Shown: positions 14,766-32,208 of the stretch, piece after piece | How the letters are laid out: each line of letters starts with the position of its first letter | Position numbering within the stretch: the first letter of the stretch is position 1 | NCBI RefSeq assembly: GCF_022267315.1 | Contig: NZ_JAIKLE010000001.1 | Coordinates: forward strand, 310,001 to 374,000 | Source: Maribellus maritimus | GTDB lineage: Bacteria; Bacteroidota; Bacteroidia; Bacteroidales; Prolixibacteraceae | Length of the DNA: 64,000 bases | Direction of reading: 5' to 3' | The notes under the pieces: model-generated | The model's input: the letters and a program-made list of their open reading frames with translations, nothing else | The model's database searches: none | Told to the model about the DNA's origin: nothing | Position numbers and translations under genes: made by a program

Positions 14766-15528
14766 TTTCTGTTGGGTTATTTTCTTTTAGTTTTTGTAAA
14801 AAACGCAGTCTGGGTTTAAATGCATTTTGTTTAAGCGAGGGTTCAAGCACGGCTCTTCCTGTGCAATATTTAGACAAACCGCGCTGTCTGATTTTCATTT
14901 CGCGCAACAACAAAACCATGGGCGAAGATTTTAAGCTACTCCCGCGTTTTAGCTCAAAAATCACAAGATCATCAAATTGAATTTCGCTTTTGGTGTTCCA
15001 GAATTTTGGTTTCAAATCGATGGTACACCTGTCTGTTTTTTGCTTATGAACAAGCGTTATCCTGTAAAACCTGTTTTTTAATGCCGGTTGGAGGTTTTTG
15101 TTTCCAAAAGGAGAACTTGTTTCCAAAAAATTGTCTTCTGTTCGGGATATTTCAGAATTCTCAAAATCTGTCGCTATTCTTTCTTTTATTGTACGGCACT
15201 TGTTATTCTTTAATTTTACTTCAAAAAATCCGGTATTTGAATTAACATAATTTCTCCGGCGTATTTTATACCGGTTCAATTTTTGGTTGTGATGGGTCAA
15301 ATACATTTCATTCTTTTCCGTATCGAAATATGTTGTGTGGTATTCCATCAGTCTTTGCCCTTCTATTTCCAGAATACGATAAAAAGGAAAAGCCTTTTCC
15401 AGCAGTCCGGGCAATTGTGCCAAAGTAAACCAATATTTTCGGTCTATCCTGTTCATCAGCTTTATCTCCGTGGTTTCGCCGAGCAAAACAGGCTCAAATT
15501 TTGCCAATATGTTGACTATTCGGTTCAA
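14737..15528 (-). CDS. VTC-domain polyphosphate polymerase-like protein
   Basis: Single VTC domain (CYTH-like tunnel fold), which in yeast Vtc4 makes polyphosphate from ATP. Visible elements: LMNRIDRKYWF near residue 24, YHTTYFDTEKNEMYLTHHN, the basic strand KLNRYKIRRRNYVN, FFEVKLKNNKCRTIKER, and late LVIFELKRGSSLKSSP, which supply the Lys/Arg and Glu ring of the tunnel. Length 263 fits a stand-alone bacterial VTC protein. The start is a TTG at 15528 with no in-frame ATG close upstream; the next ATG (residue 25) would cut the domain edge. First gene of a three-gene overlapping operon. Confidence 0.85.
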   Translation of the reverse strand: MNRIVNILAKFEPVLLGETTEIKLMNRIDRKYWFTLAQLPGLLEKAFPFYRILEIEGQRLMEYHTTYFDTEKNEMYLTHHNQKLNRYKIRRRNYVNSNTGFFEVKLKNNKCRTIKERIATDFENSEISRTEDNFLETSSPFGNKNLQPALKNRFYRITLVHKQKTDRCTIDLKPKFWNTKSEIQFDDLVIFELKRGSSLKSSPMVLLLREMKIRQRGLSKYCTGRAVLEPSLKQNAFKPRLRFLQKLKENNPTENEDTANSWN

Positions 15529-16143: not shown

Positions 16144-16151
16144 TATATTTG
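16144..16151 (+). promoter_or_regulatory. Bacteroidota -7 element (TATATTTG) of the large hydrolase operon
   Basis: Exact TAnnTTTG match 25 bases before the ATG at 16176, likely the main promoter for the genes 16176-22798 and perhaps to 31547. Confidence 0.65.
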
Positions 16152-16175: not shown

Positions 16176-18713
16176 ATGAATCTGAAACTAAACCGACGGA
16201 ACGATTCGACTGTCTTTTCCATTCAATCCGTTTTAATTCTCATTTTTCTGATATTTCCCTTTAAACAAAGTCAAAGTCAGGAGAAAAGGCAACCGACAGA
16301 TGTAAAAGTTATCGGACATGCCCACATGGATCCGGTTTACCGGTGGCGTTGGAATGAGATAGAAAACCGCGAAATTTCCAAAACGTTTTCTGATGTTTTG
16401 AAAGAACTGGATACGTATCCCGAGCTTCAATTTGCCCAAAGCTATATGCTTTATTATGAAACCGTTCAAAACCGTTTTCCCAAACTTTTTGAAAAGGTAA
16501 AACAACGTATTTCAGACAAAAGATGGAGTGTTGTTGGAGGCCAGTGGGTTGAAACAGACGAAACGTTACCTTCCGGCGAAAGCCTCATCCGACAATTTCT
16601 GGTCGGACGTGATTATTATACAAAAAACCTCGGCATCAAAAACGTAACGATTGCATGGCTACCGGATGTGTTTACCGGCCATTCGAGTACAATTCCTAAA
16701 ATATATGCAGGGTGTGGAATAAAAAATTATGTATTTAGTCGCGAAGCACCAAAAGACAAGCGGATTTTCTGGTGGGAATCAGCGGACGGTTCACGGATTC
16801 TGGCGTATAAAATTCCGGGGCATTACATCCCTGATTACAAGATTTTACCCGGACAAGTGGAAGAATGGATTAAAATTTCAGGTTATAATAAACCATTGAT
16901 TGCAGTAGGCAAAGGTGACCATGGAGGCGGCCCCGGGGAAACAGACATGCGGAGTCTGGAATTGCTTTCCAATGAGTTTCCGCTGCAATTTAAATTTATT
17001 TCGCCTGAAGACTATTTCAATGAACTAAATCAGGCAGATTTTAACTGGCCTGTTCAAAATAAAGAATTCGGATATCAACCTAACGGCGGGCAGTGGCTCG
17101 GTTGTTATACCTCACAGGCAAAAATCAAAAAGCAAAACCGGCGCCTGGAAAACCAACTGATTGCCGCCGAAAAATTCTCTGCCATTGGTACCATGCATAA
17201 AGGAAAACCTTTTTATCCGCGTGAAGACTTTTTGGAAGCATGGAAAATATTACTTTTTAATCAGTTTCATGACATTATTCCCGGCACTCTTACCGGATTG
17301 GGAGCCAACGATGTATTTAAAGACTATAACAAGCTGGAACAAATTTCATCAGAATTGTTAACCGCGGGGCTTGAGAATATCGGAAACCGAATCGATACGG
17401 AAACAGATGGAATTCCGCTGGTAGTTTATAATCCGCATTCATGGGAGGTTAGCCAGTTTGTTGATGCTGAAGTTTCATTTGTAAAACGACCAGCCGAATT
17501 TAGCTTAAAAGATTCAGAAGGGGAAAGCATCCTTTATTCAATAATCAAAGAGTCGGAGGATAAACAAACGGTCACCGTTTCAATGGATGCAACAAATATC
17601 CCTGCACTTGGATATAAAGTTTACACTGTTACGAATGAAAAAACAGAAATGCCTAAAACGGATATTGATGTTACAGAAAATCAAATTGAGAACAAATTCT
17701 TTGTAGTAAGATGGAACGACGAAGGCGTTACAAATATCTTCAATAAAAAATTACAAAAAGAATTTGTTAATGGTGTTGCAAATACGCTTCAGTTGTTTGA
17801 GGACAATGGCAACAGCTGGAGTTTGAAATTGACAGGTAAAAAATATCCCGTGAATCAACTAACTCCACCAAGAATCATATTTTCTTCACCCGAAAAAGTA
17901 ACTGTTCAATGGGAAGATTACTTCCAGTCGTCAAAATTTGTACGCTATATGACTGTTTATGCAAATTCAGAGCAAATCAATTTTGAAATGGAAGTGGATT
18001 GGCACAGTCACAATAAAATACTGCGCCTTGCCTTTCCAACCGTTTTAGCAAACGGACAAGCCTGTTATGATCAAGCATATGGCTATGTGCAGCGGGAAGA
18101 AACCGAGGGAGAGTTTCCGGCTCAAAAATGGGTCGATTATTCGGAAAAAAATTGTGGAATATCACTCTTAAATAACGGGAAATACGGATTTACAATCAAT
18201 AATGGTGTACTGACCATGTCGATAGTGCGTGGTGCCAGAGACATGGATCCGCGAATGGATGAAGGAAAACATTCGTTTAAATATGCGCTAAATGTTCATG
18301 AAGGTGATTGGCGGGATGCAAATATTCCATTACGGGCATGGGAATTTAATCAGCCGTTAATTGCCAAACAGGAAAATCAACATCCCGGGGAGATCTCTGG
18401 CTGGACTTACAGCAATTTGTCATTCCCTTTGGAAAAATCGTTCTTTGGAATCAACAGCGATCATGTTATTATTTCGAGCCTAAAAACAAAACAGGACGCC
18501 TATGAAACCAATCCCATAATTTTACGCATCATTGAAACCGAGGGAAGTGATGAAAATGTAACCGTACGGCTGCCGTATGAAGCAAAATCTGTAAACGAAT
18601 GCAACCATTTGGAAGAACCAATTGAACAACGAAGTGAAATTAAAACGGACAGCACACAGTTTCACTTTACCATCGGACATGATCAGATAAGAACTTTTAT
18701 GATATATTTCTGA
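16176..18713 (+). CDS. GH38 alpha-mannosidase, exported
   Basis: Retaining zinc-dependent alpha-mannosidase. An N-terminal hydrophobic signal (about residues 17-34, ending SQSQ) directs export. Catalytic landmarks: zinc motif GHAHMDPVYRWRW (His48, His50, Asp52 region), nucleophile Asp164 in WLPDVFTGHSS, and the late histidine of FNQFHDIIPGT. The C-terminal half is the usual GH38 beta-sandwich region (WEDYFQSSKFVRYMTVY, LNVHEGDWRDANI). Length 845 is normal for bacterial GH38. It leads a ten-gene same-strand run; the next gene begins 16 bases on. The target could be alpha-mannose on N-glycans or algal mannan; the linkage is not predictable here. Confidence 0.93.
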   Translation: MNLKLNRRNDSTVFSIQSVLILIFLIFPFKQSQSQEKRQPTDVKVIGHAHMDPVYRWRWNEIENREISKTFSDVLKELDTYPELQFAQSYMLYYETVQNRFPKLFEKVKQRISDKRWSVVGGQWVETDETLPSGESLIRQFLVGRDYYTKNLGIKNVTIAWLPDVFTGHSSTIPKIYAGCGIKNYVFSREAPKDKRIFWWESADGSRILAYKIPGHYIPDYKILPGQVEEWIKISGYNKPLIAVGKGDHGGGPGETDMRSLELLSNEFPLQFKFISPEDYFNELNQADFNWPVQNKEFGYQPNGGQWLGCYTSQAKIKKQNRRLENQLIAAEKFSAIGTMHKGKPFYPREDFLEAWKILLFNQFHDIIPGTLTGLGANDVFKDYNKLEQISSELLTAGLENIGNRIDTETDGIPLVVYNPHSWEVSQFVDAEVSFVKRPAEFSLKDSEGESILYSIIKESEDKQTVTVSMDATNIPALGYKVYTVTNEKTEMPKTDIDVTENQIENKFFVVRWNDEGVTNIFNKKLQKEFVNGVANTLQLFEDNGNSWSLKLTGKKYPVNQLTPPRIIFSSPEKVTVQWEDYFQSSKFVRYMTVYANSEQINFEMEVDWHSHNKILRLAFPTVLANGQACYDQAYGYVQREETEGEFPAQKWVDYSEKNCGISLLNNGKYGFTINNGVLTMSIVRGARDMDPRMDEGKHSFKYALNVHEGDWRDANIPLRAWEFNQPLIAKQENQHPGEISGWTYSNLSFPLEKSFFGINSDHVIISSLKTKQDAYETNPIILRIIETEGSDENVTVRLPYEAKSVNECNHLEEPIEQRSEIKTDSTQFHFTIGHDQIRTFMIYF

Positions 18714-18729
18714 ACCAAAACCAAAAAGT

Positions 18730-19659
18730 ATGACAAGAATCGGGATACTCATTGTTGGAATCTTCCTGGCAATAAATGTAAACGCGGGTAAAAATATTTT
18801 CTCCGTTAAGGGGACCAAAGCATATTTGAATGATGAGGCTTTTTTGAGCATCGGATTGCGCTGTTCCAATGCCTTAATTTCAGAAAAAACCACTGATGAT
18901 TTAATCGGGCATTTGGATTTGTACAAGTCTTTTGGGGTAAATACCATCAGTGTATTTTTTATGGGATCACGTTTTGGCGACGTAACAGGATACTACAAAG
19001 ACGGAACCTTAAATCCGGTGTATACCAACCGTATGGCTAAAATTATTAAAGCCTGTGACAAACGTGACATGGTAGTTTTGGCAGGATGTCTTTACTGGGG
19101 TACTTCCGAGGCAAAATGGGAAAACTGGACTCAAAAGGAAGCTAATGCAGCCGTGGCAAATACGGTAAAATGGCTTTCAGAGAATGATTATAAAAATGTT
19201 TTTGTTGATCCCGACAATGAAGGAATGGCACACCGCGAAAAGGGTTTTGATATTGAAAAAATGATTGCTGCCGGGAAAAAAGTGGATCCTGAAATAATGA
19301 TTGGATACAACAACCATGGCCTGCCTCCTGCTAATGCTGATCTGGCTTTACATTTTTCAGATAAACCGGAAAACAAACATTATATCGAGAGCGAAGGAAC
19401 AATGACCGATTATTGGGGAGCGTACAGTAAAGAGCAGGGAGTGTACAACTATATTAACATTGGGATTTACACCGAAGGAAAAAAGCGTGAACAATTGAAA
19501 AACACTGATAAGCATTTGCAGAATGGAATGGGGTACATTTTTGCTTCAACCTGGTTACAGTGTATACCGCCAAATTGTAAGCCAGGTGGCGACGGAACAC
19601 CTTGCAATCCCGGCATCTCGTGGTGGCTTCAACACATCAAAGAATCGTATAAAAAATAA
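18730..19659 (+). CDS. Exported TIM-barrel protein, glycoside-hydrolase-like (clan A type)
   Basis: A 309-residue protein with a signal peptide (about 19 residues). The sequence resembles a cellulase/GH5-type barrel: VKGTKAYLNDEAFLSIGLR at the start, HLDLYKSFGVNTISVFF, then VFVDPDNEG (where the acid/base Asn-Glu pair of clan A would sit) and YIESEGTMTDYW, where the second Glu could be the nucleophile. Shorter than typical GH5 enzymes and not assigned to a numbered family. A proline/cysteine/glycine loop near the C terminus (CIPPNCKPGGDGTPC) looks like a disulfide-stabilised loop. Sits 4 bases before the GH31 start, so very likely co-translated. Confidence 0.65.
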   Translation: MTRIGILIVGIFLAINVNAGKNIFSVKGTKAYLNDEAFLSIGLRCSNALISEKTTDDLIGHLDLYKSFGVNTISVFFMGSRFGDVTGYYKDGTLNPVYTNRMAKIIKACDKRDMVVLAGCLYWGTSEAKWENWTQKEANAAVANTVKWLSENDYKNVFVDPDNEGMAHREKGFDIEKMIAAGKKVDPEIMIGYNNHGLPPANADLALHFSDKPENKHYIESEGTMTDYWGAYSKEQGVYNYINIGIYTEGKKREQLKNTDKHLQNGMGYIFASTWLQCIPPNCKPGGDGTPCNPGISWWLQHIKESYKK

Positions 19660-19663
19660 AAAT

Positions 19664-21265
19664 ATGAAATTCAGATTACTCTTTTTAAGCTTTATATTAT
19701 TTCCAAACCTTGTATTGGTTGCGCAAAATCAACCGTTTAAAATCGATTTGCTTCCGGGTGAAAAAATCTGGTCGGGTGTCATCACCGACGGGCACAAAAT
19801 GCCGCTCGCCGGTGGATTTGAATTTGACTTTTATGCCAATAATCAGGGAAATCAAACACAACCTTTATTATTAAGCAATAAAGGTTTGTATGTATGGAGC
19901 CAGAAACCTTACAAATTTGAAATCGGAAATAATGAGATTATCATTTCTGAAAACTATGGAAAAGTTGAACACGGTAGAAATGGGACCACGCTGAAAGAGG
20001 CCAGACAATTTGCGTCAGAACATTTCTTTCCTGCGTCGGGGAAAATGCCCGATGAAATGTTGTTTACTGAGCCACAGTACAACACATGGATCGAGTTGAC
20101 CTACGACCAAAACCAGGAAGACATATTAAAATATGCCCATGCAATAATTAATAACGGATTTCCTCCGGGGGTTTTTATGATTGACGATACATGGCAGGAA
20201 GACTACGGACTTTGGAATTTCCACCCGGGTCGCTTCCCCAATCCACGCCAGATGATGGATGAGTTACATAAAATGGGATTCAAGGTAATGTTATGGGTTT
20301 GTCCTTTTGTAAGTCCGGACCAGGCATTGATTGTACGCGAAATTATGAAAGGTAAAGGATTTCTTCTTAAAAAGATAGATGAAACAACTACATGGGAAAC
20401 TGCCCGGGAGCCAGCCATTATCAAATGGTGGAATGGGTATTCAGCGTTGCTCGATTTTAGTAATCCGGCTGCAGTAGATTGGTTTAACAATCAACTCGAC
20501 CGCCTCGTTAACGAATACGGAGTGGATGGTTTTAAGCTTGATGCAGGAGATATGCAGTACTACCCGCCCAATGCTATAAGTAAAGAAAATGTAAGCCCCA
20601 ATAAACAATGCGAGCTGTACGCCATGATTGGATTACGTTACCCGCTAAACGAATATCGGGCGTGCTGGAAAATGGCAGGGCAGCCACTTGCCCAACGTTT
20701 ACGCGATAAACAACATTCGTGGAGCGACATGCAAATGTTAATTCCACACATGATTGCAGAAGGCCTTGCGGGTTATACATTCTCTTGTCCCGACATGATT
20801 GGCGGTGGCGAATTTAGCAGTTTTCTCGATTTAAACAGCTATGACGAAGAGCTTGTTGTTCGCTCAGCACAATGCCACGCACTGATGCCCATGATGCAAT
20901 TTTCGGTAGCGCCGTGGCGGGTTTTAAATGAAAAGAACTTTGAGGCCGTAAAAAAAGCGGTGGAAATACGCAAAAAATTTACGCCTCTGATTTTAAAACG
21001 GGCAAAAGAATCAGCTAAGACAGGTGAACCTGTCATTTCAAATCCTGAATATTTCTACCCTAACCAGGGATTTGAAAATATTAAAGATGAATTCCTTTTA
21101 GGCGAAAATCTGTTGATAGCGCCTGTTTACAAAAAAGAATATTCAAGAGAAGTGATCCTTCCCAATGGCACATGGATTGCTGATGACGGGAAAAAATATA
21201 AAGGTGGAAAATCATACATTATCGACGTGCCGATTGATCGGTTACCTTATTTTGAGAAACAATAA
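19664..21265 (+). CDS. GH31 family alpha-glycosidase, exported
   Basis: A 533-residue protein; ATG at 19664 gives a clear signal peptide ending near VLVAQ, whereas the longer frame would overlap the previous gene. GH31 signatures: FPPGVFMIDDTWQEDYG, GFKVMLWVCPFVSP and the nucleophile Asp293 in DGFKLDAGD; the acid/base probably lies in QHSWSDMQM. GH31 enzymes act on alpha-glucosides, xylosides, galactosides or sulfoquinovosides; the missing long N-terminal sandwich and short length make the specificity uncertain. Same operon as the GH38 gene. Confidence 0.9.
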   Translation: MKFRLLFLSFILFPNLVLVAQNQPFKIDLLPGEKIWSGVITDGHKMPLAGGFEFDFYANNQGNQTQPLLLSNKGLYVWSQKPYKFEIGNNEIIISENYGKVEHGRNGTTLKEARQFASEHFFPASGKMPDEMLFTEPQYNTWIELTYDQNQEDILKYAHAIINNGFPPGVFMIDDTWQEDYGLWNFHPGRFPNPRQMMDELHKMGFKVMLWVCPFVSPDQALIVREIMKGKGFLLKKIDETTTWETAREPAIIKWWNGYSALLDFSNPAAVDWFNNQLDRLVNEYGVDGFKLDAGDMQYYPPNAISKENVSPNKQCELYAMIGLRYPLNEYRACWKMAGQPLAQRLRDKQHSWSDMQMLIPHMIAEGLAGYTFSCPDMIGGGEFSSFLDLNSYDEELVVRSAQCHALMPMMQFSVAPWRVLNEKNFEAVKKAVEIRKKFTPLILKRAKESAKTGEPVISNPEYFYPNQGFENIKDEFLLGENLLIAPVYKKEYSREVILPNGTWIADDGKKYKGGKSYIIDVPIDRLPYFEKQ

Positions 21266-21289
21266 ATTTAATCGACAAAAGAACAAACA

Positions 21290-22798
21290 ATGAATAAATA
21301 TACTATTCTGTTTCAATGCTGCTTCTTCCTTTCAGTTTTACTTTTCGACAGCACGAACTGCTTTGGTTCTGAAAGCGATACCATTGTTCCGCGTTATAAG
21401 GTTACACTTCCTGAAGCACATGTTGGAAATTTGGATATCGACACCAGGTTACTTGACAGTTACGGACTTTTACCTGAAAATATCAGGCAGTTTTATTTTG
21501 ATGCTCGTTCTGTTTTTTTTGGTACACCGGATGCTGATTTTACAAATCCCGGGATTATTGCGGCTGCCCGTAAATACAATTTACCAATAATGGGTGGCCC
21601 CATGCTTGGAAAATTAAACGAAAACAGTGTTAACATTTGGATACGTCCATCGACCTCAGAGCCTTTGGTTGTGAAAGTAAAAAAATCGGGAAGCAGCGAT
21701 GAAAAATCATATACAAAAACTTCAGTTGAACCAGGCGTGGACCAAAGAATTGTATTGGACAGTCTGTCTTCCGCTACCGAATACGAATATACAGTTTACA
21801 CAAATGGGAAAGGAGTTGCAGAGGGCAGCTTTACTACCACACCTGCTTCCGGCGAAAAAAATAGTTTCAGGATAGCCTTTGGGTCATGTTTTCATAAAAT
21901 AGGTTTACACAATCCCAATTTAATCAATCAAATTCTAAAAAGAGAGCCTCAGGCTATGATGCTTCTGGGAGATATTGCAGTGGACGACAGGGAGAACCGA
22001 ATTAATTTGCACAGGTCTGATTATATGCTTCGTGATGTTTCAAAACCATGGAAGGAGCTCGCAGCAAATGTTCCGCTCTATACTTCCTGGGATGATCACG
22101 ATTATTATAACAATGACCTTAGTGGGACACCTAAAGGATTCACCACAGCAGACCGCGAAGCAGTCAGGGCGGTATGGCAGCAAAATTGGAACAACCCGGA
22201 AAACAAAAAGCCAGGTATTTATTTTAACTCACGTATCGGTCCGGTGGAAATAATAATGCTCGATACCCGCTCATGCCGGGAAAACGGACAAAGAGGCCGG
22301 TACGGATCGTATCTGGGCCCGGAACAACTCACATGGTTAAAAGAAACGTTAAAAAGCTCCGAAGCTCCGTTCAAAATTGTTAGCAGTGGCACCATGTGGA
22401 GCGATTATGTTAGTAACGGAAAGGATTCATGGGGAACCTGGGATACAAAAGCACGAGAAGAAATTTTTGCTTTTATCGAATCAGAAAAAATATCCGGTGT
22501 TTTATTAATTAGCGGTGACCGCCACGGAGCACGTGGATTTACAATTCCCCGGCCATCGGGATTTGAATTTTATGAATTTGAGGCCGCTTCGCTTGGTGGT
22601 GTTCCGGGGCCCGATGCAATGGCCAAAGAAAGTACAAACCAGTTATTTGGGTATCACGGAACAGCGGCCGTTGCCTTTGGTGAATTTACTTTTGACATTC
22701 AGGAGGATACACCTGCTGTTACTTTCAGGCTAATCGATCAGTTCGGCAACATATTGGAAAAATACACACTGCCATATAAAAAGTTAACACCACCTTAA
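21290..22798 (+). CDS. PhoD-like metallophosphatase, exported (first of two)
   Basis: A 502-residue protein with a signal peptide (about 25 residues). A fibronectin-like N-terminal PhoD domain (NSVNIWIRPSTSEPLVVKV) precedes the metallophosphatase domain: FGSCFHK, MLLGDIAVDD, SWDDHDYYNND and LLISGDRHGARGF provide the metal-binding Asp, Asn and His residues. PhoD enzymes cleave phosphodiesters or monoesters and usually need calcium and iron. The first 90 residues are an extension not explained by PhoD. Its place among glycosidases and sulfatases points to removal of phosphate groups from a glycan or glycolipid; that is inference. Confidence 0.88.
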   Translation: MNKYTILFQCCFFLSVLLFDSTNCFGSESDTIVPRYKVTLPEAHVGNLDIDTRLLDSYGLLPENIRQFYFDARSVFFGTPDADFTNPGIIAAARKYNLPIMGGPMLGKLNENSVNIWIRPSTSEPLVVKVKKSGSSDEKSYTKTSVEPGVDQRIVLDSLSSATEYEYTVYTNGKGVAEGSFTTTPASGEKNSFRIAFGSCFHKIGLHNPNLINQILKREPQAMMLLGDIAVDDRENRINLHRSDYMLRDVSKPWKELAANVPLYTSWDDHDYYNNDLSGTPKGFTTADREAVRAVWQQNWNNPENKKPGIYFNSRIGPVEIIMLDTRSCRENGQRGRYGSYLGPEQLTWLKETLKSSEAPFKIVSSGTMWSDYVSNGKDSWGTWDTKAREEIFAFIESEKISGVLLISGDRHGARGFTIPRPSGFEFYEFEAASLGGVPGPDAMAKESTNQLFGYHGTAAVAFGEFTFDIQEDTPAVTFRLIDQFGNILEKYTLPYKKLTPP

Positions 22799-22833
22799 AC
22801 AGAAGATGACAGAGATTTTGTCGCTTTATTTTA

Positions 22834-22841
22834 TACATTTG
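22834..22841 (+). promoter_or_regulatory. Internal Bacteroidota -7 element (TACATTTG)
   Basis: Exact TAnnTTTG match in the 75-base gap before the sulfatase at 22874, 32 bases from its ATG. Suggests the second half of the cluster can be transcribed on its own. Confidence 0.5.
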
Positions 22842-22873
22842 AAACAACAACAATAAAAACTAAACCAACGGAT

Positions 22874-24421
22874 ATGTGCCAAAAAATATTTATTTTTCTT
22901 TTTTGTGTCTTAATCGTTTTATCCTGCAAAAAAGAACAACCAAAACCAAACATTATATTAATCAGTGCCGACGATTTGGGCTGGTCGGATATCGGATGTT
23001 ACGGCAGCGAAGTACAGACCCCTAACCTCGACAAGCTGGGGGAAGGTGGAATACGATTCACCAGGTTTCATAATACATCAAAATGTTTCCCTTCAAGAGC
23101 ATGCTTGCTTACCGGAGTTTATGCACAGCAAAACGGTTATTCCAACACACACACCAACCCCATCACCAATGCAGTTACGCTGGGAGAAGTTCTTCGTACA
23201 GCGGGTTACCGCACACTTTGGTCAGGGAAACATCACGGTTTGGAAAATCCTTTTACCCGGGGTTTTGACCGATACTATGGTCTAAAAGACGGTGCCTGTA
23301 ACTATTTTAATCCGGGCGACCAACGGCCGGGTGAAGGTGCACCGGCGCGCAAAGGAAAACCCGGAAATAAAACCCAACGTTGGTGGTGTATCGACTCTGT
23401 AATGTATCATCCTTACACGCCGGAAGCGAAAGACTTTTACACAACCGATTATTTTACAAATTATGCGTTGGGCTGGTTAGATGAATATAAAAATGAAAAC
23501 AAACCATTTTTCCTTTACCTTGCTTTCAATGCGCCACACGACCCATTAATGGCCTGGCCGGAAGATATTGCCAAATCTAAAGGGAAATACGATGCAGGCT
23601 ATGAAAAAATCCGCAACCAACGGTATCAAAAACAACTTCAAATCGGCCTAATTGATGATTCATACAGTTTGTCAGCTCCAACTTATGACAACTGGGAAGA
23701 TTTAGCAGATTCCATTCAAAACGACGAAATCCGTAAAATGGAAGTTTATGCGGCGATGATCGACAGAATGGATCAAAACATCGGTCGGTTGCTTGCGAAA
23801 CTAAAAGAAACAGAGAAAGATGAAAATACGCTTATCCTGTTTGTATCCGACAACGGAGCATCGGCTGAAATGGTGCATATAGAGGACGATTACGGAGAGA
23901 TTGGAACAATGACCCGGTGGTCGTCGCTTGGCGAAAATTGGGCAAATGTAGGAAATACTCCTTTCCGTTTTTATAAAAACTTCAGCTATGAAGGAGGCAT
24001 CAACACCCCATTGATTGCATGGTGGCCGGGAAAAATCACACCTAAAACATTTTCTGAATTCCCCGGGCATTTTATCGATATCATGGCCACGGTAGTGGAT
24101 ATTACGGGAGCTACTTACCCAACGGAATTTAACAACCAAAAAATAACACCTATGCAGGGGGTTAGTTTACTTCCTGTACTCAACGGAGAAAAAACAAGCA
24201 GAGAAAAGCCCATTTTTTGGGAATGGCGCCGGGGAAGAGCAGTTTATTCCGATTCATGGAAAATAGTCAAAGAAGGATTGGAGGAACCATGGGATCTGTA
24301 TAATATTGAGCAGGATCCGACCGAAACAAAAAACCTTGCCAATAGTAATCCTGAAAAAGTTAAAGAGATGGAGCAGCTTTTCGAGGAATGGAAATCCAGT
24401 CAAATTGAAAAGAACGAATGA
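22874..24421 (+). CDS. Arylsulfatase-type sulfatase lipoprotein
   Basis: Lipobox IVLSC (Cys18). Standard S1 sulfatase layout: NIILISADDLGWSDIGCYG with metal-binding aspartates, maturation motif CFPSR (Cys71-Arg75), TLWSGKHHG, and FVSDNGASAEMV late. The formylglycine site is canonical (C-x-P-S-R). Length 515. A PhoD-like gene follows with ATG overlapping its stop (ATGA at 24418-24421), so the sulfatase and the phosphatase are translationally coupled. The substrate is unknown. Confidence 0.93.
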   Translation: MCQKIFIFLFCVLIVLSCKKEQPKPNIILISADDLGWSDIGCYGSEVQTPNLDKLGEGGIRFTRFHNTSKCFPSRACLLTGVYAQQNGYSNTHTNPITNAVTLGEVLRTAGYRTLWSGKHHGLENPFTRGFDRYYGLKDGACNYFNPGDQRPGEGAPARKGKPGNKTQRWWCIDSVMYHPYTPEAKDFYTTDYFTNYALGWLDEYKNENKPFFLYLAFNAPHDPLMAWPEDIAKSKGKYDAGYEKIRNQRYQKQLQIGLIDDSYSLSAPTYDNWEDLADSIQNDEIRKMEVYAAMIDRMDQNIGRLLAKLKETEKDENTLILFVSDNGASAEMVHIEDDYGEIGTMTRWSSLGENWANVGNTPFRFYKNFSYEGGINTPLIAWWPGKITPKTFSEFPGHFIDIMATVVDITGATYPTEFNNQKITPMQGVSLLPVLNGEKTSREKPIFWEWRRGRAVYSDSWKIVKEGLEEPWDLYNIEQDPTETKNLANSNPEKVKEMEQLFEEWKSSQIEKNE

Positions 24422-25911
24422 AAAAAACAACTAAAATGAAACTAAATATAAATCAACGCTTCATTTTCACAGTATTTTTAGCCTTTCTGTTTTTGGGGTG
24501 CAGCCTCAAAAAAGAAACCGACGGGCCTTATTTTGGAAACGGCTTTCACAATGGATGGGCTGACCAAAGTTCAATCGTAATCTGGACACGGCTGACCCAT
24601 ACCCCGGAAGGGAATACCAATGGAACAAAATTTCTTATCCCATCGGCTGAAGAACACCGACGATTGGATAAAGAAGCCAATCCCGAAAAAATTCATAAAG
24701 CACAAATTCCGGAAGGAATGACATTGGAAAACATGGTTGGTGCTTGTCCCGGTGCACCAGGTGAAGTCAAACTTATCTACTATCCTTTGTTAAATTCTGA
24801 CAACAAAACAGAAACCGATTGGATTGCCGTTGATGAGAAAAAAAACTATACAACCCAGTGGCAACTTGAGAACCTCCAGCCCAACATAAAATATGTTGTT
24901 GAAATTGAAGCCAGGCTCAATAACCAATCAAAAGTTTCGGATAAAATTGAAGGTGCTTTCCGCACGCCACCAACAGAAAAAACAGAAGAGGACATTGAAT
25001 TTTGTATCGTTACCTGTCATGATTATTGGAGAAAGGACACAACTGACGGGCACAAAATCTACAATTCCATGATAAAAATGTTCCCTGATTTTTATGTGCA
25101 TACAGGCGATATTGAATATTACGATAAACCCGAACCCTATGCGCTTACTGAAGAATTGATGCGCTTTAAATGGGATCGTTTATTCGCGCTTCCTCTGCAA
25201 CGCAAATTCTGGACACAAGTAACCTCCTATTTTATGAAAGACGACCATGATGCACTTAAAAATGATGCCTGGCCCGGTCAAACCTATGGGACAGTACCCT
25301 GGGACAGAGGCATTGAAATATTTGAAAAAGAACAATTTCCTTATCACAACAAGTTTTATAAAACCATTCGTTGGGGAAAAGACCTGCAGATTTGGATTAC
25401 AGAAGGAAGAAACTACCGGAGTTCCAACAATATACCGGACGGGCCGGAAAAAACCATTTATGGGAAGGAACAAATCGATTGGCTATTTAAAACATTAAAG
25501 GAATCGGATGCTACGTTTAAAGTAATTATCAATGCCAATCCCGTTTTAGGCCCCGACCGCGAGAATAAAAACGATAATTATTCAAATTCAAAGTACGCTT
25601 TTGAAGGGGATCAAATACGCAATTTCTTGAATCAATTTGACAATGTATATCTGTGTAACGGCGATCGTCATTGGCAATATGTAACACACCTGCCCGATAC
25701 AAATCTCTGGGAATTTAGCTGCGGTGCCGGTACTGACATGCATGCCGGGGGATGGGATCAGGAAGACCTGCGCCCTGAGCATCGGTTTTTGCGGGTAAAA
25801 GGAGGTTTTCTGAGAGGAGAGGTTTCCCGGGAAAATGGAAAACCAAAACTTACTTTCCAGCATTACGATGTTAATGGAGAAATGGTTCATGAAGAAATAT
25901 TTACAAAATAA
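24418..25911 (+). CDS. PhoD-like metallophosphatase lipoprotein (second of two)
   Basis: A 497-residue lipoprotein (lipobox FLFLGC). It has an N-terminal PhoD beta domain (SSIVIWTRLTHTPEG, then LENLQPNIKYVVEIEARL) with an insertion of charged residues, then phosphatase motifs CIVTCHDYW, YVHTGDIEYYD, YFMKDDHDALKNDAW and YLCNGDRHWQY. It differs clearly from the copy at 21290 (different insertions, lipid anchor instead of a free signal), so these are two divergent members rather than a recent duplication. Coupled by a 4-base overlap to the sulfatase. Joint sulfate and phosphate removal is inferred. Confidence 0.87.
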   Translation: MKKTTKMKLNINQRFIFTVFLAFLFLGCSLKKETDGPYFGNGFHNGWADQSSIVIWTRLTHTPEGNTNGTKFLIPSAEEHRRLDKEANPEKIHKAQIPEGMTLENMVGACPGAPGEVKLIYYPLLNSDNKTETDWIAVDEKKNYTTQWQLENLQPNIKYVVEIEARLNNQSKVSDKIEGAFRTPPTEKTEEDIEFCIVTCHDYWRKDTTDGHKIYNSMIKMFPDFYVHTGDIEYYDKPEPYALTEELMRFKWDRLFALPLQRKFWTQVTSYFMKDDHDALKNDAWPGQTYGTVPWDRGIEIFEKEQFPYHNKFYKTIRWGKDLQIWITEGRNYRSSNNIPDGPEKTIYGKEQIDWLFKTLKESDATFKVIINANPVLGPDRENKNDNYSNSKYAFEGDQIRNFLNQFDNVYLCNGDRHWQYVTHLPDTNLWEFSCGAGTDMHAGGWDQEDLRPEHRFLRVKGGFLRGEVSRENGKPKLTFQHYDVNGEMVHEEIFTK

Positions 25912-25920
25912 AACGTTAAA

Positions 25921-26778
25921 ATGAAAACATTACTAAACTGTACAATTGCACTTTTACTGTTTATGGGAACCTCAGCACAAAAAAATGTGATAATAAAACT
26001 TTGGCCTGATGCTGTACCCGGTGAAACAGAAGCCAAACACGAGCCTGTTGTTACCGACAATACCTCCGGGGATGTCACACGCTTAACAGATATAACCGAT
26101 CCGGGAATGATCGTTTTCCCGGCAAACAGCAACAATAACAATGGCGCCGGTGTAGTCGTCTGTCCGGGTGGAGGATACAATATTCTGGCCATCGACAAAG
26201 AGGGATATGAAATTGCACTGTGGCTTAATAAACTGGGATTTACAGCTGCAGTACTTCAATACCGGGTTCCCAAAAAACAGGATGGTGCTTTACAGGATGT
26301 ACAACGAGCCCTAAGAATAATGAGAGACCGGGCTGAAAAATGGAATCTAAACCCGGATAAACTGGGTGTGATGGGATTTTCGGCCGGCGGAAGTTTAAGT
26401 GCACGCGCCAGTACCTTGTATGAAAAACAAACATACCCCAAAGTTGACGAAAACGACGAACTTTCCTGTCGACCTGATTTTGCGCTATTGATTTACCCTG
26501 CTTATCTTGATCAGGGAGAAAACCGAAGTCTTACTCCGGAATTGAAAGTGGTTGAAAACACTCCGCCCACATTTATTTTTCAAACTGCCGACGACCGCTT
26601 AGGAAACAGTTCGTTGGTTTACGCAACTGCCTTGCGCGATGCAAAAGTACCCGTTGAATTACACTTATTGCCGGAAGGCGGCCACGGATATGGAATGCGA
26701 CCGGGTAATGTAGCAGGTGAGACCTGGCCCGGACTGGCTGAAAGATGGCTGGGAAAAACGATTACTTCGTTAAACTGA
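25921..26778 (+). CDS. Exported alpha/beta hydrolase, acyl-glycan esterase-like
   Basis: A 285-residue secreted protein (signal ending GTSAQ). The fold is an alpha/beta hydrolase of the BD-FAE/acetylxylan-esterase type: oxyanion motif VVVCPGGGYNILA, nucleophile elbow GVMGFSAGGSLS, acid in FQTADDRLG and histidine in LPEGGHGYGM. Such enzymes remove acetyl or feruloyl groups from polysaccharides. It starts 9 bases after the phosphatase gene, within the operon. The specific acyl group is not predictable. Confidence 0.87.
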   Translation: MKTLLNCTIALLLFMGTSAQKNVIIKLWPDAVPGETEAKHEPVVTDNTSGDVTRLTDITDPGMIVFPANSNNNNGAGVVVCPGGGYNILAIDKEGYEIALWLNKLGFTAAVLQYRVPKKQDGALQDVQRALRIMRDRAEKWNLNPDKLGVMGFSAGGSLSARASTLYEKQTYPKVDENDELSCRPDFALLIYPAYLDQGENRSLTPELKVVENTPPTFIFQTADDRLGNSSLVYATALRDAKVPVELHLLPEGGHGYGMRPGNVAGETWPGLAERWLGKTITSLN

Positions 26779-26872
26779 TAATCTTCTGAAATGAATGTTG
26801 GGTAACGTTTGAAAACCATTTCTATTATTGTCGTCCTGCTTTCCGGAATTACAGGCTATAAAATAACAGGTT

Positions 26873-28144
26873 ATGAAAAGAAGAGATTTTATACACACAA
26901 CTGCTTTGGGAAGTATCGCAATTTTAGGACTCCCCGCTCCAGCAATACATAGCTCTGCCAGTTTTACTACTTCCGCTCGACAAATAACCAACGGCCCCCT
27001 GCATCATTTATTTGGTTATATAGGCCAATCATTAACTATTCCCTGGAATTCAACGGGTAAACGATTGCTTACCCTAAGTTCGCCTTTTATCGACCATCTT
27101 CCTGATGGAGGCGAACCTGCCGGCGTTTGCCTGGTTCATTTGGACAAACCTGAAGGGAAATATTATAAAATTGAAAAAGTAGATGAATCTTTGGGTTGGA
27201 ATCCACAACAGGGTACCATGTTTTACTGGAATCCTGATAATGCTGCGAACCAGTTCTTTTTTAACGACCGGGACAAAAAAACAGGTAAAGTGTTTACCGC
27301 GCTATTTGATATTTCTAAGAACAAGCGTGTTTATGAATATAAATTTAATGATACACCTGTTGGCAATAGTGGAGTTTGCCCAAAAGGAAAAACTTTTCTG
27401 GCTATTAATTACGCAAGAATGGCACGACTGCGGGCAGTAACCGGATATAAAGGCGCCACCGACTGGACAGAAGGTGCAAGGGCTCCCAAAGATGATGGCA
27501 TTTTTAAAATCGATATTCAATCCGGCAAAAAAGATTTATTGGTTTCATTTGCTACATTGGAGGCTGAACTTCAGAAAAAAGGATTTGATACAGGTGGTGA
27601 ATCTTTATTTATTAATCACACATTGTGGAATCGGGATGGAAAGCTCTTTTGCTTTTTTGTTAGGGCCGGATGGAAGGGCACAGGAAAAGAAAAAAGAACC
27701 AATGTATTTTGCACTATGAACTCAGATGGCACCGGATTACATGTGGGACGTCAGTTTATTGGAGGTCACCCTGAATGGGGAATTGGGCAAAACATGATTG
27801 GCCGAATTGGTGATGATCAGGTAATTTTCGATATTATCAATGAAAAAATTGTAGGAAAGATTGGTACACCGGAAGCAATTCCCAATCCGGAAGGCGATAT
27901 TAGCTTATCTCCTGATGGAAACTGGTTTGTAAATGGTTCCGCAAAAGATGGTAAAAACTTTTACAACATTATTCGCCTAAAAGATGGAGAATGGACAAGG
28001 AGTGAAGGTATTGATAAAGGAGAATATTCAGGCGATGTAAGAATTGATTCTGCCCCAAGATGGAACCGTGAAAACAATCAGGTTTTAGTACAGGGAATTA
28101 CCGATGACGGAACGGAACAGCTATTTATCATTACTATCAAATAA
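26873..28144 (+). CDS. Tat-exported beta-propeller protein, PL22-like or TolB-like
   Basis: A 423-residue protein starting MKRRDFIHTTALGSIAILG, a twin-arginine signal. The body is beta-propeller-like, with repeated blade ends such as GVCLVHLDKPEG, GIFKIDIQSGKK and GDISLSPDGNWFVNG, and histidine-containing loops (NHTLWNRDGK, GGHPEWGIGQNM). Oligogalacturonate lyases of PL22 have a seven-bladed propeller with histidine-bound metal; the resemblance is suggestive but not decisive, and a non-catalytic TolB-like protein is the alternative. Tat export hints at a metal cofactor loaded in the cytosol. It follows the esterase after 94 bases. Confidence 0.6.
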   Translation: MKRRDFIHTTALGSIAILGLPAPAIHSSASFTTSARQITNGPLHHLFGYIGQSLTIPWNSTGKRLLTLSSPFIDHLPDGGEPAGVCLVHLDKPEGKYYKIEKVDESLGWNPQQGTMFYWNPDNAANQFFFNDRDKKTGKVFTALFDISKNKRVYEYKFNDTPVGNSGVCPKGKTFLAINYARMARLRAVTGYKGATDWTEGARAPKDDGIFKIDIQSGKKDLLVSFATLEAELQKKGFDTGGESLFINHTLWNRDGKLFCFFVRAGWKGTGKEKRTNVFCTMNSDGTGLHVGRQFIGGHPEWGIGQNMIGRIGDDQVIFDIINEKIVGKIGTPEAIPNPEGDISLSPDGNWFVNGSAKDGKNFYNIIRLKDGEWTRSEGIDKGEYSGDVRIDSAPRWNRENNQVLVQGITDDGTEQLFIITIK

Positions 28145-28188
28145 AATTCAAGATCAGCTGAATTAAAAATTTCGCTAAAACAATTAAT

Positions 28189-29595
28189 ATGAAAATTAAA
28201 ACAGCCATAAAAATTACCTTAAGCCTGGTATTAATTACACTTCTTTTGCAAAGAGCTTATTCACAGGCTGTTCAAAAACCGAACATTGTTGTTATTATGA
28301 CCGACCAGCAATTTGCTGATGCAATGAGTTGCGTGATGGGCGAGCAATACATACACACTCCAAATATGGATAAATTGGCAGAAAAGGGGATCAGGTTTAC
28401 GCATGCATATAGTCCTAACCCCTTATGCATGCCCATGCGTACTTCAATGATGACCGGCAGATTTCCACATGAAACCGGTGTATTAACAAACGACGACGAA
28501 GATATTAGCCCATCAGATTTTGTATTCCTTGGAAAACTGTTTAAAGATGCCGGGTATGAGACCGGATATTTTGGGAAATGGCATGTGGCTTTTGATGAAA
28601 AACAGAAAAAAATACACGGATTTGATAATCCAATAGCTAAAGGAAGCCAATTGGATGCTGAACCAGCTGCAACTTTTTTGAAACAAAAACATGAAAAACC
28701 TTTTCTTGTTGTAGCTTCGTTTTTGAGCCCTCATGAAGTTTGCCAATGGTCACGAAAGCAGAATTTGCCCGGAGGACCGATAAGTGAAATGCCGCAACTG
28801 GAGGATTTACCGCCTCTCAAAACGAACTTCTTTCCACCTGAAAACGAAACCGATATTATGGCATTTATGCGGAAATCATACCAGGCAAATCTTCGTTTGT
28901 TCCCGGTTGGCGATTATACAGATGCTGATTGGCGCAGATTACAATGGGGATATTACAGGTTAATTGAACGTGCCGATGCATTTGTGGGCACAGTTATGGA
29001 TGCGCTGAAAGAGTCAGGGCAGGAAAAAAATACGCTGGTGGTTTTTCTCAGCGATCACGGCGATTGTGCGGGCAGTCATCACTGGAACCAAAAAACCGTA
29101 TTCTATGATGAATCAGCTCGTGTACCGTTTATTATGAAATGGGATGGTAAAACCATAAAAGGTACTTCGGATGTGCTTTTAAATACCGGAACAGATATGA
29201 TTCCAACCCTTTGCGACTTTGCTGGTATTGAAATCCCCAAAGGACTTCCCGGGAAAAGTTTAAAGGCAACGGCAACCGGGAAAGCACCAGAATGGAAACG
29301 GGAATATGTTGTAACGGAAAATCATATGGTTCAATGCGAGCCTGTTGACGGAAGAAATTACAAACCCCAGGGAAGAATGGTTCGCAGTTCACGCTACAAA
29401 TATTGTATTTACAGCGAAGGGAATGATCGGGAATCCCTGGGAGACATGGATTCCGATCCTTTGGAAATGGTCAACCAGGCTGCGAATCCTGTGTATAAAA
29501 AAATTCTTGAACAACACCGCAAATATTTAAAAGAACATGCTAATCAAACCAACGACGCAATGGCGTTAAAAATGCTAAACGACTTAAACAATTAA
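28189..29595 (+). CDS. Sulfatase with an unusual C-x-P-M-R maturation motif
   Basis: A 468-residue secreted sulfatase (signal ending RAYSQ). Fold markers: NIVVIMTDQQFADAMSC, YFGKWHVAF and VVFLSDHGDCAGSHH. The formylglycine site reads LCMPMRTSMMTGR (Cys80, Pro82, Arg84), with methionine at the fourth position where serine, threonine or alanine is usual. The cysteine, proline and arginine recognised by the maturation enzymes remain, so activity is plausible. The late DHGDCAGSHH motif is like choline-sulfatase/N-sulfoglucosamine-type members. Two bases separate it from the next gene. Confidence 0.92.
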   Translation: MKIKTAIKITLSLVLITLLLQRAYSQAVQKPNIVVIMTDQQFADAMSCVMGEQYIHTPNMDKLAEKGIRFTHAYSPNPLCMPMRTSMMTGRFPHETGVLTNDDEDISPSDFVFLGKLFKDAGYETGYFGKWHVAFDEKQKKIHGFDNPIAKGSQLDAEPAATFLKQKHEKPFLVVASFLSPHEVCQWSRKQNLPGGPISEMPQLEDLPPLKTNFFPPENETDIMAFMRKSYQANLRLFPVGDYTDADWRRLQWGYYRLIERADAFVGTVMDALKESGQEKNTLVVFLSDHGDCAGSHHWNQKTVFYDESARVPFIMKWDGKTIKGTSDVLLNTGTDMIPTLCDFAGIEIPKGLPGKSLKATATGKAPEWKREYVVTENHMVQCEPVDGRNYKPQGRMVRSSRYKYCIYSEGNDRESLGDMDSDPLEMVNQAANPVYKKILEQHRKYLKEHANQTNDAMALKMLNDLNN

Positions 29596-29597
29596 AA

Positions 29598-31547
29598 ATG
29601 AAAATAAAAAGCAGCTTCTCTGTAATTCTTTTCTTGCTCTTCTTTACTTCCTTCATAAATGGTCAGAACATCGACAAAAATTTCGTTGAGCCTCCGCGAG
29701 AATTTTCAGTTATGCCATTTTGGTTTTGGAATGACACACTTAAAGCAGATGAGATTCTCAGACAAATAAAAGACTTTGATGATCATGGGGTTTATGGATT
29801 TGTAATTCACCCGAGAATGGGATTACCCATTGGCATGGATTTTCTTTCCGAGGAGATGCTAAGCCTAATGAAAGTTGCCATTGAAGAAGCAGAGCGAAGA
29901 AATATGAAGGTTATACTTTACGACGAAGGTTCCTATCCTTCTGGTTCTTGCGAAGGCCAGGTAGTGGCAAAGAATCCTGCACATGCCGCCAGGGGGCTGG
30001 CAAAAATTGATTTAGAAACCGGAGAAAAGCCGGTTTTGGAAGATGGATGGAACCTGGTAACGGTACTGCAACGCCCCAATGGAAAACAGATGGCAGTTGT
30101 TGAACAACCTTCAAATGGACATATTCGGGGAATTCACTGGGTTGACGAAGCAAAAGGAAAAGAAGATCTCCCACCCGCCGGGGATATATTAAACCCCGAA
30201 GCAGTTAGTAGCTTCATTGAACTGGTATATGACCGGTTTGCAGATAACTTTAAACCATATTTTGGGAAAACAGTACTTGCTGTTTTTACGGATGAACCCG
30301 ATCCGCTGGGACGTGGAAGCAAAAGAGGCATAGTACCTGGAAACAAAAAGTTACTGCCGCAGATAAACAAAATACTCGGTTACGATTTTACACCTTACTT
30401 TTCTGATTTGTGGTACGAAGATCATGAAAATTGGGAACAACACCGAAAAGATTATCACCGGGCTATTGCAATCTGTTTGGAAGAGAATTATTATGGAAGA
30501 TTGAGCAAATGGTGTGAAAGTCACGGAATCGCACTCACAGGGCACCCGGCCGGCTCTATGGATTTGGGAGCCCAGAAATATTTCCAGATTCCTGGTCAGG
30601 ATTTGGTTTGGCGCTATGTTGAACCGGGTGAAAAGGCATTGAATGGACAACATTCGACCATGGCAAAAAATGCCTCAAGTGCAATGGTTCATTTAAATCG
30701 TCGCCGGAACTCCAACGAACTCTATGGTGCTTACGGGCATAACCTAACCTACGATGAAATGGTTTGGCTGGCCAACTGGTGTTTTGTAAGAGGACAGAAT
30801 TTACTTTATCCCCACGCATTTTATTATTCAATAAGGGGTGCCCGCTACGATGAAAGACCGCCGGATGTTGGACCACATGCAAAATGGTGGAGCAACTATA
30901 AAGGTTACGCTGACGCCTGCCGAAGGCTAAGCTGGTTAAACACCGATTCGCGCCAGGTATGTGAAATCGCTGTACTTGGTGACGCCAACTGGCTACCGGA
31001 TCGATCAGCCAAGGTGTTTTTCCAAAATCAGAAAGATTTCAACTACCTGGAATTAACACACCTAATTAATGATGCCACAGTCGACAAAAGCGGTGTGCAT
31101 ATTGCAGGAATGAATTACAAAGCCGTAATTCTGGATGGATTACAAATAATTCCTGATAATATTAAACCGATACTTAACAAATTAGCCGAAAACGACCAAC
31201 TAATTATTTTTAAGGATTCACCTTTTATTTCAACTTTCCCAAAAGCAAAAGTAGCTCAAACTGGAGCCGAACTAAATGCAGAAACGGAAAAACTAATTCA
31301 GCCTGATATTTTTCTTTCGCCTTCATCCGAAAATATACGTTATCGCCATGTTATAAAAGAAGGAGTTCATTATTATATTCTTTTTAATGAACAGGAAACT
31401 TCAGTGACAACAAAAATAAGTGTGCCAGTTAAAGGAAATCAATGGTGGTTAGACGAATTTACAGCTAAAGCCACATTAGCTCAAAAAGGCCAGAAAATTA
31501 CCTTTCAACCGCATGAATTAAAACTATTAATGGTGAAAGAAAATTAA
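29598..31547 (+). CDS. GH106-like exported glycoside hydrolase (short form)
   Basis: A 649-residue secreted protein (signal ending SFINGQ). Its opening EPPREFSVMPFWFWNDTL and the GFVIHPRMGLP and LYDEGSYPSG motifs are those of the GH106 alpha-L-rhamnosidase group and related hydrolases. AVFTDEPDPLG and ALTGHPAGS carry candidate catalytic carboxylates and histidines of the barrel. It is well short of typical GH106 enzymes (about 1000 residues) because the C-terminal accessory sandwich domains are missing; the chain ends at a small beta domain. So a related, shorter family is possible. Last gene of the operon; only 16 bases separate it from the convergent DUF2490 gene. Confidence 0.75.
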   Translation: MKIKSSFSVILFLLFFTSFINGQNIDKNFVEPPREFSVMPFWFWNDTLKADEILRQIKDFDDHGVYGFVIHPRMGLPIGMDFLSEEMLSLMKVAIEEAERRNMKVILYDEGSYPSGSCEGQVVAKNPAHAARGLAKIDLETGEKPVLEDGWNLVTVLQRPNGKQMAVVEQPSNGHIRGIHWVDEAKGKEDLPPAGDILNPEAVSSFIELVYDRFADNFKPYFGKTVLAVFTDEPDPLGRGSKRGIVPGNKKLLPQINKILGYDFTPYFSDLWYEDHENWEQHRKDYHRAIAICLEENYYGRLSKWCESHGIALTGHPAGSMDLGAQKYFQIPGQDLVWRYVEPGEKALNGQHSTMAKNASSAMVHLNRRRNSNELYGAYGHNLTYDEMVWLANWCFVRGQNLLYPHAFYYSIRGARYDERPPDVGPHAKWWSNYKGYADACRRLSWLNTDSRQVCEIAVLGDANWLPDRSAKVFFQNQKDFNYLELTHLINDATVDKSGVHIAGMNYKAVILDGLQIIPDNIKPILNKLAENDQLIIFKDSPFISTFPKAKVAQTGAELNAETEKLIQPDIFLSPSSENIRYRHVIKEGVHYYILFNEQETSVTTKISVPVKGNQWWLDEFTAKATLAQKGQKITFQPHELKLLMVKEN

Positions 31548-31563: not shown

Positions 31564-32205
31564 TTAAAATTTGTAGCTCATCCCTGTACCTAAAATAAGT
31601 TTGTGCTTCCAGACATCAAGGTAATCTTCATTAATCTGGTGGCCTAAAAAAAGGTTAAAGTTTACATTCTTGACATGAATAAATGAACCTAAAATCGTTC
31701 TTTGCCTTGAGTATCCGAATTCATCAAAATAAAAGGAAAATTCAGTAGAAATATATGGGCTAACAACCTTAAACTTCTTGTACATTAATTGAAGTTGATT
31801 TCTGTAGCGGTTTATCAATTCACCATCATAAAATCGAAACTCCCAGCGGCTGCGATCCCTGAAACTAAAATTCCCAAAACTTTTATTATAATACATGTGC
31901 AACATCGGACGGTACTCTGCCCTCCATCGTGTTGGGAATTCAACATATTCCTGTTTATAGCCCACGCCAAAACTTATACTCTTTTCTGAAGGAAAATCCA
32001 GCGTTAGCTGTGTATGATTCAGAAAATAATCTCCCCCGTCTCTGAAAAAATTTGCACTGTGAAAAAAGAAATCCATGTTTCTGATTTTTGTCTGACCACC
32101 TGCAAAGGTCCAGGTTTCAAAATCTGCCGCACCAACTCTGACAGCAGAAAAAATCAGCACGACAATGATTAGGGATTTCAGCTTAGGTTTAATTGATTTT
32201 TGCAT
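31564..32205 (-). CDS. DUF2490 family outer-membrane barrel protein (second copy)
   Basis: A 213-residue protein with a signal peptide (through RVGAA) and beta strands typical of DUF2490: FETWTFAGGQT, RWRAEYRPMLHMYY and a final strand GTGMSYKF ending in phenylalanine. It has the same length as the copy in the VTC operon but clearly different sequence. It is preceded by a 75-base leader with two hairpins and a TAnnTTTG element. Its neighbours are carbohydrate genes, so it may be an outer-membrane channel for that pathway; unproven. Confidence 0.78.
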   Translation of the reverse strand: MQKSIKPKLKSLIIVVLIFSAVRVGAADFETWTFAGGQTKIRNMDFFFHSANFFRDGGDYFLNHTQLTLDFPSEKSISFGVGYKQEYVEFPTRWRAEYRPMLHMYYNKSFGNFSFRDRSRWEFRFYDGELINRYRNQLQLMYKKFKVVSPYISTEFSFYFDEFGYSRQRTILGSFIHVKNVNFNLFLGHQINEDYLDVWKHKLILGTGMSYKF

Positions 32206-32208
32206 ACT

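Follow-up and report, generated by a model that had tools for sequence, protein, structure and literature searches.

The closest described systems to the locus reported here are the polysaccharide utilisation loci (PULs) of Bacteroidota that contain S1 sulfatases, and the phosphate utilisation systems (PUS) of Flavobacterium johnsoniae, in which phosphoesterases stand in PUL-like clusters (PMC8115612, in the part available to us). For single enzymes the reference points are PhoD of Bacillus subtilis (2yeq; PMC4223295, also available in part), the S1_4 enzyme BT4683 (7all), a 3S-Gal sulfatase in mucin degradation according to the accessible part of PMC10154620, and the GH31 alpha-galactosidase 8j50. 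Here we describe a run of ten genes at 16176-31547 of a 64,000-nucleotide stretch (the window) of the Maribellus maritimus genome, which has 7.33 Mb in 201 contigs; the window lies on a contig of 510,519 bases (C111). As in the PULs with S1 sulfatases, glycosidases, S1 sulfatases and esterases are co-directional, with secretion judged by eye, and parts of the core stand behind SusC/SusD in relatives. In contrast to those PULs, the operon in the window is without SusC/SusD, a scan of 20 neighbouring open reading frames (ORFs), a subset of those in the window, turned up no regulator, and two PhoD-like genes are interleaved. PUSI and PUSII have phosphodiesterases or a phosphomonoesterase in place of carbohydrate-active enzymes (CAZymes) in the available text of PMC8115612, whereas the window operon is dominated by CAZymes and sulfatases and has no SusCD-like pair.

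At the centre of the run stands a recurrent module, PhoDa–S1 sulfatase–PhoDb–esterase; SusC/SusD PULs of relatives contain portions of it. We think it rather probable that the ten genes are transcribed as a unit whose products break down, outside the cytoplasm, a branched heteropolysaccharide bearing sulfate and acetyl groups. The operon, which carries this recurrent module for de-esterification, would have been parted from its transporter. The genes, and a putative promoter element before them, are as follows.

16144..16151, + strand: TATATTTG, a perfect match to TAnnTTTG, which we take to be the consensus of the Bacteroidota -7 box, 24 bases before the first ATG
16176..18713, + strand: gene 1, GH38 alpha-mannosidase-like, with the Pfam GH38 N, middle, C and C2 domains
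18730..19659, + strand: gene 2, probable clan GH-A glycosidase, with NEG and ESEG glutamates and no Pfam family
19664..21265, + strand: gene 3, GH31 of alpha-galactosidase type, with Pfam GH31 and the solved relative 8j50
21290..22798, + strand: gene 4, PhoD-like A (PhoDa), PF09423 at 83.1 bits, without the presumed iron tyrosine
22874..24421, + strand: gene 5, S1 sulfatase, S1_4-like, with CFPSR at residue 71, PF00884 at 200 bits, lipoprotein by eye
24418..25911, + strand: gene 6, PhoD-like B (PhoDb), PF09423 at 66.1 bits (cut-off 27), lipoprotein by eye
25921..26778, + strand: gene 7, alpha/beta-hydrolase esterase by Pfam, PaeX/acetylesterase-like, below the cut-offs of the PaeX/acetylesterase models
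26873..28144, + strand: gene 8, unclassified family with a twin-arginine-like leader, a propeller by reading only
28189..29595, + strand: gene 9, S1 sulfatase with CMPMR at residue 80, PF00884 at 183.3 bits
29598..31547, + strand: gene 10, GH106-like (alpha-L-rhamnosidase-related), short, Pfam GH106 at 28.4 bits

The recurrence of the core was seen in several genomes. In a member of the same genus (G176) the order is SusC–SusD–gene 5 (79% identity)–gene 6 (75%)–gene 7 (69%)–sulfatase–GH26, and in a member of another family of the same class (G408) an extracytoplasmic function (ECF) sigma factor, an unscanned ORF, SusC and SusD are followed by genes 4 (43%), 5 (48%) and 6 (40%). Five other genomes also have the sulfatase–PhoDb pair, with 7-36 bases between the two genes, and relatives of gene 5 (38-75% identity) lie within two genes of PhoDb in L014, L018, L019, L024, L026, L057 and L058. 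A verrucomicrobial locus (L056/L145) has PhoDa, a sulfatase, PhoDb and a sulfatase with two other ORFs between, and in G096 three sulfatases and one ORF are followed by PhoDa. The nearest relatives of PhoDb include Draconibacterium and Mariniphaga (Prolixibacteraceae), and because a named strain, Mariniphaga anaerophila DSM 26910 (L014), carries the sulfatase–PhoDb pair, the function of PhoDb is open to experiment. A preliminary description of this DNA had taken the interleaved sulfatase and phosphatase genes to suggest that sulfate and phosphate are both removed from one substrate; the order in G408, the pair in five genomes and one fusion, described below, make the interleaving look functional. 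It had also taken the lack of SusC/SusD as the mark of a separate kind of locus; this did not hold, and we rejected it as a defining trait of the module, since the same core follows SusC/SusD in G176 and G408. The conserved neighbourhood that it expected was found for parts of the core, not for the ten-gene unit.

PhoDb is one of three PhoD matches in the genome, two of which are within the operon. The AlphaFold2 model of PhoDb (mean pLDDT 92.1) has a PhoD fold, with PhoD 2yeq as the best solved match (E 2.8e-26, 16% identity), and against the NCBIfam PhoD model the protein scores 19.6 bits for a cut-off of 1000. To map the metal ligands, residues were taken from the available part of PMC4223295 with an offset of 56 and counted over 48 alignment rows. 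The equivalent of Cys-180, C200, is kept in 45 of 48 rows and that of Asp-436, D416, in all 48, while the equivalent of Asn-272, N282, is asparagine in 31 and aspartate in 17. Within the GDxxY motif, which presumably holds the iron tyrosine, D231 and Y234 are found in 48 of 48 rows. PhoDb thus keeps all mapped PhoD metal ligands, and a phosphoesterase activity is predicted for it. It shares PF09423 and the fold with the B. subtilis enzyme, and differs from it in the low identity of the structural match, in being a lipoprotein by eye and in its place in carbohydrate loci. In PhoDa the aspartates and the Asn-272 equivalent are kept and the cysteine is present in five of the six sequences compared, with GDxxV in place of GDxxY in all six. 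Because the presumed tyrosine is absent, at a motif position that we assume, the name phosphatase is less safe for PhoDa, which on its residues is PhoD-like only. A recent duplication as the origin of the two genes was rejected, as both the tyrosine and the relatives differ.

To place PhoDb more widely, genome contigs were searched; 209 relatives were confirmed and 80 loci kept, and neighbours were counted in the 72 loci where the ORF caller found PhoDb, the other eight being dropped. In 23 of 72 loci the ORF next to PhoDb is a sulfatase, and 38 loci contain one at some position. Sulfatases make up 19 of the 86 co-directional neighbours within 250 bases of PhoDb, against about 1.3 expected, where the expectation takes the mean sulfatase density of 18 genomes from first-pass candidate counts, the matches having been capped at 73, and assumes 900 genes per Mb; the loci are not independent of one another. 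Within about 10 kb, a sulfatase was found in 11 of 18 loci from 18 genomes, compared with 4.35 expected (P 0.0006). Genes of the UxuA/UxaC family are present in 13 of 72 loci. In 12 of 80 loci PhoDb comes immediately after a GH88-cluster gene, and nine of these also hold UxuA/UxaC-family genes; ten of the 12 are from Flavobacteriaceae, and two (L051 and L052) are near-identical. Eight of the 80 loci have the complete series, with two heparinase II/III-like lyases, BNR_4 and GH88 before PhoDb; the families are named here from one representative per cluster. The BNR_4 representative shows similarity to BACCELL_00856-type proteins and, at a greater distance, to rhamnose-glucuronate lyase. The loci L037-L054, of marine-type Flavobacteriaceae, combine SusC/D-like proteins, heparinase II/III-like lyases, BNR_4, GH88, PhoDb, a LacI-like regulator, UxuA, UxaC and a TRAP transporter, where the SusC-like, SusD-like and LacI-like proteins and two TRAP parts were named by reading; judged from this predicted gene content, it is a conserved uronan locus. 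Two fusions were also found, a 941-aa S1 sulfatase–PhoD protein with a CNPSR motif (L087) and a glucuronoyl-esterase-like domain joined to a PhoD part that is a distant relative (G131). As strong evidence for membership of the PhoDb family the second was dropped, given its long branch.

We put forward, tentatively and with rather less confidence than the reading of the operon, that PhoDb and its relatives in Bacteroidota, Verrucomicrobiota, Planctomycetota and Hydrogenedentota may be an unrecognised carbohydrate-active metallo-esterase family related in sequence to PhoD. The dedicated task of its members would be to take a blocking phosphate, or another ester, off polysaccharides that are sulfated or contain uronic acids, and they would act next to S1 sulfatases, lyases and glucuronoyl-esterase-like enzymes or as fusions with them.

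The operon itself would act on a sulfated heteropolysaccharide that contains alpha-galactose and alpha-mannose, with rhamnose as a less certain component. The two sulfatases, the two PhoD-like metallo-esterases and the acetylesterase would remove ester groups that block the glycosidases, and the exposed chain could then be trimmed by the GH38, GH31 alpha-galactosidase-type, GH-A-like and GH106-like enzymes. Most likely PhoDb would cleave a phosphoester, either a phosphomonoester or a phosphodiester, on the glycan that gene 5 is predicted to desulfate; the two groups, sulfate and phosphate, could plausibly be removed together. As the core stands at a site without SusC/SusD, uptake would presumably be through a SusC/SusD pair or a TonB receptor encoded elsewhere.

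Several observations weigh against this interpretation. The ten-gene order was not found in any other genome examined, and in G176 the orthologs that were found are on four contigs (genes 5-6-7 on C131, gene 9 with a PhoDb paralog on C68, gene 2 on C8, genes 1 and 8 on C45); the ten genes therefore need not share one substrate. The 4-5-6 order comes from G408 alone, where PhoDb is on a long branch (2.39). PhoDa was matched at 1e-60 in 3 of 50 PhoDb-bearing genomes, so PhoDb usually works without it, and two of the five PhoDa-bearing genomes outside the window (G668 and G671) have no sulfatase in the stretch examined. There is no adjacent sulfatase in 49 of 72 PhoDb loci and none in the stretch in 34, many of these stretches ending at contig ends. 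The glucuronoyl-esterase fusion falls outside the PhoDb clade (branch 5.96), and both fusions have glycine in place of the iron cysteine. To these are added the absence of the presumed iron tyrosine from PhoDa and a possible internal promoter at 22834 that may split the unit.

One alternative is phosphorus scavenging, in which the PhoD-like enzymes, like those of the Flavobacterium PUS, would free phosphate from organic phosphorus and the link to glycosidases would be secondary. In the available part of PMC8115612 low phosphate induces the PUS clusters, which combine phosphoesterases and SusCD-like proteins, PUSIII and PUSIV are described alongside PUSI and PUSII, polygalacturonase-homologous lipoproteins are among the PUS proteins, and organic phosphorus of root cell walls is suggested as a target. 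A PhoD of Kordia is read as a phosphorus-acquisition enzyme (PMC7477175, in part), and the title of a reference within PMC4223295, as far as that text was available, names B. subtilis phoD as a Pho regulon gene. However, PUSI and PUSII are unlike PULs in lacking CAZymes (PMC8115612, same part), and PhoDb sits among CAZymes and sulfatases. The position of PhoDb right behind the GH88-cluster gene in 12 of 80 loci, and the sulfatase fusion in one genome, also argue against scavenging, which we consider unlikely.

We give a similarly low weight to the possibility that PhoDa, PhoDb or both are not phosphatases and use a PhoD-type metal site to hydrolyse another glycan ester, of sulfate or another acid group. 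The eight lyase–lyase–BNR_4–GH88–PhoDb loci contain no S1 sulfatase in the stretch, which leaves PhoDb as the only recognised candidate there for removing an ester, and the GDxxV of PhoDa in six of six sequences favours an activity of this kind. To our knowledge no phosphorylated algal uronan has been described, which also counts for it. Against it, PhoDb keeps every mapped PhoD ligand (45-48 of 48 rows), a sulfatase elsewhere in the genomes with the lyase string could serve, and the PhoD enzymes of PMC4223295, in its available part, are phosphoesterases.

That unrelated secreted hydrolases came together by chance in a genome rich in sulfatases appears very improbable. In favour of this reading, the genome has 105 sulfatase matches, some of them fragments of a single gene, as well as 69 SusD matches, the ten-gene order was seen in no other genome examined, and the orthologs in G176 are scattered. 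Set against this, a co-directional run of ten genes with gaps of 94 bases or fewer arose twice when strand and gap were shuffled 20000 times among 42 ORFs of the window, and core parts recur in the same order elsewhere.

Both sulfatases of the operon carry the CxPxR formylglycine motif together with PF00884. The nearest solved chain to gene 5 is 7all (E 1.5e-81); for gene 9, with a 72% identical ortholog in G176, the nearest are 3b5q (yidJ, E 1.1e-58) and 5g2t, a 2-O glycosaminoglycan sulfatase (E 4.2e-57). A search of the genome for the anaerobic sulfatase maturase (TIGR03942) gave no match at 1e-40, the search being for this type and not the aerobic one. Phosphonate monoester hydrolases share the S1 fold, and gene 9 has a match among them (2w8s, E 1.4e-24), but that the formylglycine enzymes are phosphodiesterases, with the PhoD-like proteins as finishing phosphomonoesterases on one phosphodiester substituent, is the least probable of the alternatives, given how much closer gene 5 is to 7all and gene 9 to 3b5q and 5g2t.

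The ten + strand ORFs fill the span, and the gaps between successive genes are 16, 4, 24, 75, -4, 9, 94, 44 and 2 bases. These take the GH31 start at the ATG at 19664, where the signal peptide begins; the mechanical ORF start at 19523 is inside the preceding gene. The co-directional layout with one 4-base overlap, as the preliminary description gave it, is borne out by the span, the gaps and the shuffles, and points to a single transcript. By eye, signal peptides are present on all ten proteins, with lipobox-like cysteines on genes 5 and 6, which would be consistent with export of the ten products. The -7 box match TATATTTG is a possible operon promoter; no -33 box was found with it, and TAnnTTTG occurs at 0.55 per kb on the + strand of the window. 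A second intergenic match within the operon, at 22834, precedes gene 5, making an internal promoter possible. In sigma-70 and terminator scans, sites were no more frequent than in shuffles. Rfam (at the gathering threshold) and tRNA scans gave no matches, and a PADLOC scan of PhoDa, PhoDb and two neighbours gave none.

Of the family labels first assigned, GH38, GH31, the two PhoD, the two S1 sulfatases and the esterase were confirmed by Pfam, while GH106 is just under the cut-off (28.4 against 29 bits). The TIM barrel of gene 2 and the propeller of gene 8 remain labels by reading, because neither has a Pfam family at 0.001 (GH5 at E 0.11 only and PD40 at E 0.2 only, respectively). Profile searches of these two against solved structures gave nothing informative, and a single-sequence structure prediction of gene 8 gave no usable fold (mean pLDDT 33.3). 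A match of gene 8 to MtrB (E 8.4e-05, 44 positions) is probably due to chance. In gene 2 the NEG and ESEG motifs are invariant across four sequences, with orthologs at 64-72% in three aligned relatives, and it is probably a clan GH-A glycosidase. Gene 3 aligns with 8j50 over residues 20-532 (600 bits, E 5e-179), a close and near-full-length relation from which an alpha-galactosidase activity is predicted; an alpha-glucosidase or xylosidase was rejected, the alpha-galactosidase relative being far closer. Gene 10 has no solved relative up to E 0.1.

The single genes were also searched for across 247 genomes of the order, the Maribellus genome included. Gene 1 was matched at 1e-100 in three other genomes, one of them at 31%, with orthologs at 63-67% identity in G176 and G228. 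At 1e-20, gene 2 was matched in four others and PhoDb in seven, and at 1e-60 PhoDa was matched in one other (G096) and gene 10 in none of the 246. Relatives of gene 8 in G176 are 50% and 26% identical; PhoDa and gene 10 were unmatched there at 1e-60, and gene 3 was not sought there.

No SusD match lies on the 510-kb contig, all 69 of the genome being elsewhere, and a TonB-dependent receptor gene, at 48684-51128, is 17 kb downstream and outside the operon; the absence of a SusD, a TonB gene and a local regulator from the locus, as first described, was confirmed within these limits and those of the ORFs scanned. Directly upstream and divergent from the operon is a trio of VTC-domain, DUF4956 and DUF2490 genes (13492-15528, - strand). 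Its counterpart in G176, judged by ORF size and sequence start, lies about 5 kb from the gene 2 ortholog (L136, 14560-16588). This suggests that the window operon may occupy an old site whose cargo was reshuffled. Before the operon (10126-13378) are a further S1 sulfatase (+) and an alpha-L-fucosidase (-), and after it (31564-36801) a second DUF2490 gene, a pectic-acid-lyase, a 3-keto-disaccharide hydrolase and a GH28; with these on its flanks the whole stretch is rich in glycan enzymes. Further on, at 37829-41776 (+), is a 1315-aa ORF that matches no family of Pfam or of NCBIfam at 0.001.

In kind the locus resembles a PUL; its possibly new element is a PhoD-like protein that recurs as a partner of sulfatases and lyases. 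We found no title or abstract opening on PhoD-like enzymes in sulfatase PULs in the openly accessible literature, a scope that leaves out most subscription journals. One paper there, PMC12844025, contains both PhoD and PULs. If PhoDb is a glycan de-esterase, then an enzyme class is missing from the current reading of algal-polysaccharide loci, and some genes called alkaline phosphatase D would have to be assigned to the breakdown of carbon sources, not to the scavenging of phosphorus.

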